Below, piece after piece: positions 1-1,790 of a DNA stretch of 32,080 bases. Origin of the DNA: Anaerolineae bacterium (GTDB lineage: Bacteria > Chloroflexota > Anaerolineae > Aggregatilineales > Phototrophicaceae). Under the pieces are notes generated by a model. The model saw only the letters and a program-made list of their open reading frames with translations, was not told the DNA's origin and made no database searches. Each line of letters starts with the position of its first letter. The stretch's first letter is position 1. The stretch spans positions 1 through 32,080 of the forward strand of contig JAIOHN010000471.1 in NCBI GenBank assembly GCA_019912985.1. The letters run 5' to 3'. Position numbers and translations under genes: made by a program.

Positions 1-16
1 GGAAAAAGATTAGAAT

Positions 17-180
17 CTGGCAAAGTTTAACACTCCCTACCGGGAGTGCCTCTTGCCAGCTTCCGAAATTTTCGCTATTCTATGAATAGAAGTTCGGAGG
101 CTGGCTTTAAGCCGCCCCGGCGGTTTACTGAAAGCCTTCTGAGTGCCGGCCAAAGCAAAATCAGAAGGCTTCTTCTTTTA
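17..180 (+). ncRNA. Structured RNA element ending in an intrinsic terminator (5' end may lie outside the window)
   Basis: Successive stems by eye: CTGGCAA(17-23)/TTGCCAG(53-59) enclosing CACTCCC(31-37)/GGGAGTG(42-48); alternative GCCAGCTTCCGAA(55-67)/TTCGGAGGCTGGC(93-105) enclosing CTATTC/GAATAG; a GC hairpin at about 109-126; AGCCTTCTGA(133-142)/TCAGAAGGCT(161-170) followed by TCTTCTTTTA. Confidence 0.5.
133..180 (+). terminator. Rho-independent terminator
   Basis: 10-bp perfect stem AGCCTTCTGA/TCAGAAGGCT then U-rich TCTTCTTTTA. Confidence 0.6.
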
Positions 181-274: not shown

Positions 275-311
275 AAAAAAGGCGTCACCCTTTGATACTG
301 GAGTGACGCCC
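275..311 (-). terminator. Intrinsic terminator (minus strand)
   Basis: Minus strand GGCGTCAC-tccagtatcaaag-GGTGACGCC immediately followed by TTTTTTATTTTT. Confidence 0.7.
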
Positions 312-480
312 TTGATATGTGATATAATCAAGGTGATCGTACCTCTCTCTTAGGTGCGGTCAAACGTCGAACTCCTGCGTTGAGTTCGGCAGTCCCTAAA
401 TCGAAACCCCTTGGCCGGGGCATCGGCAGAAAAACGAACTTCGGTTCGTTTTTCTGTTTAGGGACGGATAAATTGTTAAT
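276..480 (-). ncRNA. Candidate ~205-nt structured small RNA, family not recognised
   Basis: On the minus strand: -35 TTGCGC / 17 bp / -10 TATACT (510-515, 487-492), then GUCCCUAAA/UUUAGGGAC stem (457-465 with 392-400) enclosing a 12-13-bp AGAAAAACGAAC/GUUCGUUUUUCU hairpin and CCCC/GGGG, then CGAACUC/GAGUUCG, GACCGCACCU/AGGUACGAUC, CUUGAU/AUCAAG, then GGCGUCAC/GUGACGCC + U6. Confidence 0.5.
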
Positions 481-655: not shown

Positions 656-1126
656 TTAAGACCCCAGTTTGGCAAACGACGCAAAAAAGTTGTCCATGAT
701 ACTGGTATTGGTGCTTTTGTTGAGCACGATGGTATCCTCGTCTTCGTCGTCGAGCACCGGCAGCGCCAGTTTCTTCATGCCGCCTAAAGCCGGTCTGGCG
801 GACGGCGCACCGTCGCCCAGCGCGAGCAGGCTGCCCTGTTCCAGCATGATACGTTTCAGGTCGGCGATCTGGCGTTCGAGCTTTTCGGTGTCGGCGGCAG
901 GGGCCGGCAGCGCGGCCTGAGTCTTTGTCCAGGGAAATAATTCGTAGAGAACCGCGGTATCACCCTCCCCCAGCGACCACATCAAGCGCAGCCCGTTGCG
1001 CACCATGCGCGCGAACTGCTGGGTTGCTTTGCAGAACTGGATGAATTCCATGAGGCGTTTATCTTCTTGCAGATCGTGGTAGAGCCAGAACTTAAACTCT
1101 TTGCGGGGGCGGTAACGACGGGCCAT
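656..1126 (-). CDS. Conserved-type hypothetical protein (156 aa)
   Basis: Full ORF MARRYRPRKEFKFWLYHDLQEDKRLMEFIQFCKATQQFARMVRNGLRLMW...; basic N-terminus, helical core, acidic low-complexity C-terminus. Confidence 0.7.
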   Translation of the reverse strand: MARRYRPRKEFKFWLYHDLQEDKRLMEFIQFCKATQQFARMVRNGLRLMWSLGEGDTAVLYELFPWTKTQAALPAPAADTEKLERQIADLKRIMLEQGSLLALGDGAPSARPALGGMKKLALPVLDDEDEDTIVLNKSTNTSIMDNFFASFAKLGS

Positions 1127-1210: not shown

Positions 1211-1219
1211 TGGTATAAT
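1211..1219 (+). promoter_or_regulatory. Extended -10 promoter element TGGTATAAT
   Basis: TGnTATAAT at 1211-1219, followed about 50 nt later by GGAAAGGG-N9-ATG at 1272. Confidence 0.4.
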
Positions 1220-1271
1220 GGAAAGAAAGGTAGAATTCAAGAATGATTTAATCTGGAAAGGGCGAATCCTT

Positions 1272-1790
1272 ATGAAGAAAGCCGGTGCGATTGCGACGCG
1301 ATTGGGCGTCCACTCCGATACGATACGGGATTGGGCAGACCTGTTTGAGGAGTTTTTCAGCGAAGGCGCGCGGCGCGGCGCTGGCATCCGGCGGGTTTTC
1401 AGCCTGGAGGACGAGGTTATCCTCAATACCGTCTGCGAACTGCGGAAACAAAACGTCGAATTTGAGGAAATTCGCGCCCGATTGACGAATGGAGAACGAA
1501 TTGAAGCTTTGCCCGTCATCAATGAGCCGGTTCCGCCAGATTCAGCCATCGAACTTTTTGGCAAAATCAAAATCCTGGAAGCGACTATCGAACAGAAAAA
1601 TGAATTGATTGCCGAATTACGGGCCGAAATTGAAGCCGAGCGCAGACGCACCGAGCAGGCCATCGAGCGTGCCCACAGTATGCCCCCGCAAGAGGTGATC
1701 GCCCTGCATCGGAAGATTGCGGTGTTAGAGTACCAGCTTGAGCAGATCCAGTCCCAGCGTGACGACAAGCAGGAAATGAGTGACCAGTAA
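1272..1790 (+). CDS. MerR-like HTH regulator with C-terminal coiled coil
   Basis: MKKAGAIATRLGVHSDTIRDWADLFEEFFSEGARRGAGIRRVFSLEDEVILNTVCELR has MerR-type HTH spacing; long E/R-rich coiled-coil tail. Start chosen at 1272 because the 1218 ATG overlaps the -10 box. Confidence 0.65.
   Translation: MKKAGAIATRLGVHSDTIRDWADLFEEFFSEGARRGAGIRRVFSLEDEVILNTVCELRKQNVEFEEIRARLTNGERIEALPVINEPVPPDSAIELFGKIKILEATIEQKNELIAELRAEIEAERRRTEQAIERAHSMPPQEVIALHRKIAVLEYQLEQIQSQRDDKQEMSDQ

Follow-up and report, generated by a model that had tools for sequence, protein, structure and literature searches.

Which RNA, on which strand and in what role, is encoded by the dense run of helices at 276–480 of the window, the whole 32,080-nt stretch of Chloroflexota DNA analysed here? 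The first-pass annotation had proposed a single undescribed small RNA on the minus strand, with a TTGCGC-17-TATACT promoter, a three-way junction, later hairpins and a terminal stem with a U6 tail. All of these elements are present, and the promoter and terminal stem are conserved in related sequences. The region is probably one of replication control, in which an antisense RNA promotes early termination of a rep leader and thereby controls copy number.

The structure itself is pronounced. The minus strand at 485–270 folds to −79.9 kcal/mol, compared with a mean of −49.6 for shuffled sequences (z −6.7; 0 of 200 shuffles as stable), and the plus strand at 270–485 folds more strongly than the minus (−91.0, z −7.5). 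In a folding scan of the 32-kb window, the piece at 1–200 (z −6.7) was the top of 160 consecutive 200-nt pieces, and 276–475 had a z of −7.1; the 276–480 region together with 1–200 is the most structured part of the window.

No Rfam covariance model matched the window at gathering level. At E ≤ 10, positions 1–1200 gave scattered sub-threshold matches only, with no ctRNA_pT181, RNAI, CopA or similar among them, and the Rfam ctRNA and RNAI families had no match at E ≤ 5 in the leaders of two related loci, L083 and L080. Familiar housekeeping RNAs, which the first-pass annotation had not recognised here either, were set aside: the 6S RNA gene of this genome is on another contig (C709, 60.2 bits with the covariance model), and there was no covariance-model or ARAGORN match to tmRNA, SRP RNA, RNase P RNA or a riboswitch in the window.

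The identity of the region comes from its relatives. A BLAST search of 61 related genomes with the 271-nt region found, apart from the region itself, chance matches within genes only. A wider query (1–655) found colinear pieces in two genomes, G069 (Chloroflexi ANAER1) and G072 (labscale reactor MAG9, a record labelled Bacteroidetes that groups within the same family here). A third genome, G061 (Anaerolineae MGR_bin408), has several copies. In total there are 8 other copies in these 3 genomes of the same family, making nine clear members in 4 genomes. A covariance model, R1, was trained only on five paralogs from G061. In a blind test it recovered the window at 515–365 on the minus strand (58.7 bits, E 3.9e-15), the G069 and G072 copies at about 1e-7, and, at a contig end, a sixth copy in G061. 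Its matches in G005, G032 and G014 were weak, and the two whose surroundings were examined adjoin unrelated genes.

Of the eight relatives, seven immediately precede a Prim-Pol gene (PF09250) and the eighth is at a contig end; at two loci the large gene after the leader carries the Prim-Pol domain with E values of 3.9e-24 and 2.3e-21. In the relatives, then, the region forms the leader of a replication gene of the Prim-Pol type, carried by plasmid-like elements, and the gene downstream in the window is presumably a Prim-Pol gene too – contig C208, which holds the window, ends where that gene would begin. The features of the leader and its surroundings, in order of transcription, are as follows.

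515–486, minus strand: sense (rep-leader) promoter, with −35 TTGCGC at 515–510, a 17-nt spacer and −10 TATACT at 491–486
~479, minus strand: predicted start of the sense RNA, from the promoter position
480–276, minus strand: sense leader up to the attenuator/terminator (fold z and R1 match as above)
465–392, minus strand: three-way junction, P1 (465–457 with 400–392) enclosing P2 and P3, with covariation as given below
311–333: H6 hairpin, whose loop region holds the antisense −10 box
310–275, minus strand: intrinsic terminator (attenuator), stem 310–281 and U-run, conserved and with compensatory changes in relatives
268–251, minus strand: Shine-Dalgarno sequence AGGAG (268–264) and two-codon ORF ATG GAT TAA (259–251), just past the terminator
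107–171, strand not assigned: palindrome TTAAGCCGCCCCGGCGGTTTA (107–127) and hairpin AAGCCTTCTGA/TCAGAAGGCTT (132–171), inverted repeat I6
1–23, minus strand: candidate first Prim-Pol codons TTG CCA GAT TCT AAT CTT TTT, cut by the contig end

Positions 1–23 would be the start of the Prim-Pol gene, judging from comparison with the coding start of L083. The relatives share the sense promoter hexamers and the 17-nt spacing, with variants TTGCGT in L083 and TTGCAT in L326. The boundaries first drawn at 276–480 were too narrow: the conserved unit spans from the promoter at 515 to about 107 and continues toward the gene past the contig end.

The helices covary. In an alignment of the nine sequences, 16 of the 32 modelled pairs change on both sides (27 cells), counts that lean toward structure because the alignment was fitted to it. 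The covariation score is 0.296, compared with 0.161 for shuffled alignments, and 0 of 500 shuffles reach the observed value. Controls in which the partner was slid gave 1–4 both-side-changing pairs, compared with 16 in the real pairing, and are a partial guard only against the fitting. Counts across the leaders are also non-independent, since the nine are interrelated and six come from one genome.

Wobble pairs show which strand carries each helix: where one strand has a G-U pair, its complement has an A.C mismatch. The first-pass annotation had read G-U pairs in the GACCGCACCU/AGGUACGAUC stem as evidence for the minus strand. That argument is reversed: the stem has two A.C mismatches on the minus strand, the same positions are G-U on the plus strand, and the G-U pairs of the helices at 335–390 and 427–456 favour the plus strand, both in the window and in every relative. 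The features of the predicted antisense RNA are listed here.

320–328, plus strand: extended −10 box TGATATAAT, in the H6 loop region, with a start at ~335
~335–455, plus strand: predicted countertranscribed RNA of about 120 nt
335–361, plus strand: H5 hairpin, close to the antisense 5' end (8 antisense-type and 0 sense-type wobbles, in 4 sequences)
366–390, plus strand: H4 hairpin (6 antisense-type and 0 sense-type wobbles)
402–425, plus strand: P3 hairpin, a candidate recognition loop with a YUNR (U-turn) motif in the antisense loop
427–456, plus strand: P2 hairpin with a cUUCGg loop on this strand, followed by a U-run (449–459) as predicted antisense terminator

In P2, 10 positions are G-U on the antisense strand and none on the sense strand, over 8 distinct stems. 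Counting distinct stems, P2, H4 and H5 together have 24 plus-type wobbles and no minus-type wobbles. P1 and the terminator, which are wholly or partly outside the antisense RNA, have no plus-type wobbles and 5 of the minus type, 4 of them in the terminator; P3 is mixed (1 and 2). The helix arms for this count were aligned by hand. Free energies, which need no such alignment, lead to the same assignment: all 9 of the sequences have an overlap that is more stable as antisense, and in 7 of 8 the terminator is more stable as sense; the window departs from this by 0.4 kcal/mol. P1 can form in the sense RNA only. An antisense extended −10 box, TGnTATA(A/C)T, is found about 110–200 nt into the leader in all nine leaders that include that part. 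The same leaders also have, close to where the sense RNA begins, a hairpin with a U-run in the antisense direction.

These patterns are good evidence that both a sense and an antisense RNA are under selection, as judged from sequence and predicted folds, and an architecture of two RNAs is well supported by the comparison. A stand-alone minus-strand small RNA with targets in trans, ending at the 276 terminator, would account for the conserved minus-strand promoter and terminator. It is nonetheless very improbable: P2, H4 and H5 are kept in their plus-strand form, every relative with downstream sequence precedes a Prim-Pol gene, and conservation of the leader runs past the terminator. What stood of the original proposal is an undescribed structured minus-strand RNA with conserved promoter, terminator and covarying helices; what did not is its independence, as it is the Prim-Pol leader overlapped by an antisense RNA. 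A little less probable still is structure at the level of DNA only, such as a single-strand origin or inverted repeats that bind protein, in which case there would be no regulatory RNA. Inverted repeats are numerous here and the context is one of replication, but each strand has a distinct wobble signature, there are promoter and terminator signals both ways, and covariation without sequence conservation fits RNA.

Returning to the sense and antisense pair, the following sequence of events is proposed. The Prim-Pol leader RNA would start at ~479 on the minus strand. An antisense RNA of about 120 nt would start at ~335 on the plus strand, cover the first ~145 nt of the leader and stop at the hairpin at 427–456, and its level would track the copy number of the element. 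When abundant, it would pair with the leader, with first contact probably made by the YUNR loop of P3, and sequester the 3' arm of H4, which would otherwise be free for the 5' arm of the terminator. With the H4 arm tied up, the terminator at 310–281 would form and transcription would stop ahead of the replication gene; when the antisense RNA is scarce, antiterminator pairing would allow read-through. Transcription of both RNAs, the attenuation step and copy control are all steps that we infer from the sequence. The purpose of such a switch would most likely be a steady copy number of a plasmid-like element in a Chloroflexota bacterium.

The pairing step has two candidate parts. The antisense P3 loop has a YUNR motif in all nine sequences – CUUG in the window, and CUUG, CUAA or CUUA in the relatives. 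YUNR is a feature of recognition loops in plasmid antisense RNAs (PMC4485353), and because the motif is common by chance, its presence here is no more than consistent with a recognition loop. The other part, with duplex ranks as evidence, is a candidate antiterminator.

~374–364, minus strand: candidate antiterminator, the 3' arm of H4 in the sense RNA, GGAGUUCGACG

In most leaders, few or no other stretches would pair better than this one with the terminator 5' arm, with fractions of better windows of 0.00, 0.00, 0.00, 0.02, 0.14, 0.00, 0.08 and 0.03. The two sides change in step: GGAGU..GACG would pair with CGUCACUCC in the window, and GAAUGAC with GUCAUUC in L080. The position is slightly shifted in L080 and L081. 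Compared with shuffled leaders, the duplex gave single-sequence p values of 0.17–0.73, none significant, and the pairing was chosen after the sequences had been seen. The predicted minimum-energy fold holds the terminator and not the antiterminator. Attenuation is a step that we only infer, because the antiterminator is non-significant in single sequences and the terminator is in the minimum-energy fold.

The same pair of RNAs could instead act on translation or on primer formation, as in a RepA-type translational block or in pSK41-like or ColE1 RNAI/RNAII-like control; such modes of action are known for the antisense RNAs of other plasmids (PMC5703833). The long leader, with its conserved two-codon ORF and Shine-Dalgarno sequence past the terminator and its conserved palindrome and hairpin further along, would suit such a mode of action. 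In every relative that includes that part, however, a strong intrinsic terminator with compensatory changes directly follows the region overlapped by the antisense RNA; attenuation therefore fits best, and action on translation or priming is considered unlikely.

The two-codon ORF is itself a feature of the family. ATG-NNN-TAA is present in 9 of 9 leaders that reach that far, with GAT, AAT, AAC, CAC or GAA as the second codon, and 8 of the 9 have a GGAG-type Shine-Dalgarno sequence before it. (The ORF in L084 was counted from the aligned leaders, as the T-run rule of the shuffling script missed it.) By mononucleotide shuffling, the chance of ATG-NNN-TAA within 45 nt is about 1–4% per leader. 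A more speculative proposal, doubtful as it stands, is a two-step rep switch in which attenuation is coupled to this ORF, and ribosomes loading there would set read-through, leader stability or the start at the distant Prim-Pol gene. We know of no other plasmid copy-control system with this combination. As an invariant feature, the two-codon ORF lends itself to direct testing. In other systems two-codon minigenes regulate leaders (PMC8708949). The minigene in the axe-txe leader is similar in that a two-codon ORF and a Shine-Dalgarno sequence lie within a leader (PMC8708949); it differs in that it adjoins a toxin gene, whereas the ORF here comes after the attenuator and its effect is putative.

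Further along, the 107–171 piece is the most conserved DNA of the leader, with 90–94% identity to relatives over 31–34 nt. Its palindrome and hairpin are a possible Rep-binding or origin site.

Two genes lie upstream of the leader.

656–1126, minus strand: ParR-like gene (156 aa), upstream of the leader and on the same strand
1218–1790, plus strand: MerR-family gene with a coiled coil (PF13411, E 2.9e-7), divergent from the ParR-like gene

The 156-aa protein has no Pfam match, and a scan of the genome contigs with it found nothing. In the relatives a ParR-like gene adjoins a MerR gene and is often followed by an actin-like gene; gene order suggests that it belongs to the segregation module of the element there. 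The MerR and ParR-like genes are in the same order in the window, which is missing the actin-like gene. Near the L083 leader are MerR, ParR-like and actin-like (ALP_N) genes, and near L080 is a tyrosine integrase. The MerR/ParR-like/ALP_N set (L083 1106–3325) is a multi-copy, segregation-like module, with 11 copies in G061. At L083 7214–7933 (plus strand), the gene next to Prim-Pol encodes a PHAX_RNA-bd domain (PF10258, E 2.7e-18); an RNA-binding protein so close to an RNA switch may be relevant to it. Sugar epimerases, glycosyltransferases and an O-antigen-type ABC transporter can be read from the translations of 2988–31000 in the window, which places a polysaccharide locus next to the element. 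No defence family was detected by PADLOC.

Such leaders probably form a wider, diverged family, judging from shared promoter signals. Several other Prim-Pol leaders have TTGCGC-17-TATACT or a similar promoter followed by an antisense extended −10 box, and four leaders (L149, L139, L144 and L129) give weak matches to the R2 model at the corresponding position. A second Prim-Pol leader of the same genome as the window (L154, G000:C283:10900-12290) has TTGCGC-17-TATACT and an antisense TGTTATAAT, with no recognisable two-codon ORF. No further members came from R2 scans of 154 genomes in the order and 396 in the class, where the filters applied miss weak members. Phage and plasmid records, searched at the DNA level, returned weak, unrelated pieces only; plasmid and viral records contain only distant Prim-Pol relatives, and R2 had no convincing match in viral Prim-Pol leaders. 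One apparent relative, G000:C443:1802-1848 (L021), was rejected, as its 84% identity over 47 nt spans only the terminator and the TATTTTTAGGAG tail. An ORF whose product has repeated barrel-like domains begins just after this copy, and the rest of the leader is absent.

Copy control by antisense RNA is best known from plasmids of Firmicutes and Proteobacteria, and searches of 5.4 million open papers returned none that links Prim-Pol with antisense RNA and plasmid replication. If the proposed switch is right, it explains how the many Prim-Pol elements in these Chloroflexota limit themselves, and it would supply both a covariance model with which to find further examples and components for genetic tools in a phylum that has few.

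Among known systems, ColE1 RNAI/RNAII is similar in that an antisense RNA of ~110 nt acts against the 5' part of a long transcript of the replication region. There is no sign of a pre-primer here, and unlike ColE1 the terminator and a downstream replication-protein gene are conserved. In pIP501 and pT181 the antisense RNA causes early termination of the leader (PMC4981023, PMC5703833). The pT181 RNAI/repC attenuator (Rfam ctRNA_pT181) has the same layout of attenuation driven by a countertranscript, but its Rfam models are unmatched here, the helices differ, and its Rep is a rolling-circle initiator. The pIP501 RNAIII/repR leader (Inc18) is the target of a complementary antisense RNA of 136 nt, close in length to the one predicted here, and there too a terminator and the rep gene come next. 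A further parallel is a U-turn loop in the target RNA, which matters in pIP501. There is no similarity to pIP501 in sequence or at the level of Rfam, no CopR homologue was identified, the initiator is Prim-Pol instead of RepR, the host belongs to the Chloroflexota, and a two-codon ORF follows the terminator. The order of sense start, antisense target, antisense promoter, terminator and rep gene is common to pIP501, pT181 and the leaders described here – the family of rep-leader/antisense control regions is real and had not been described before, and the kind of switch is one already known.
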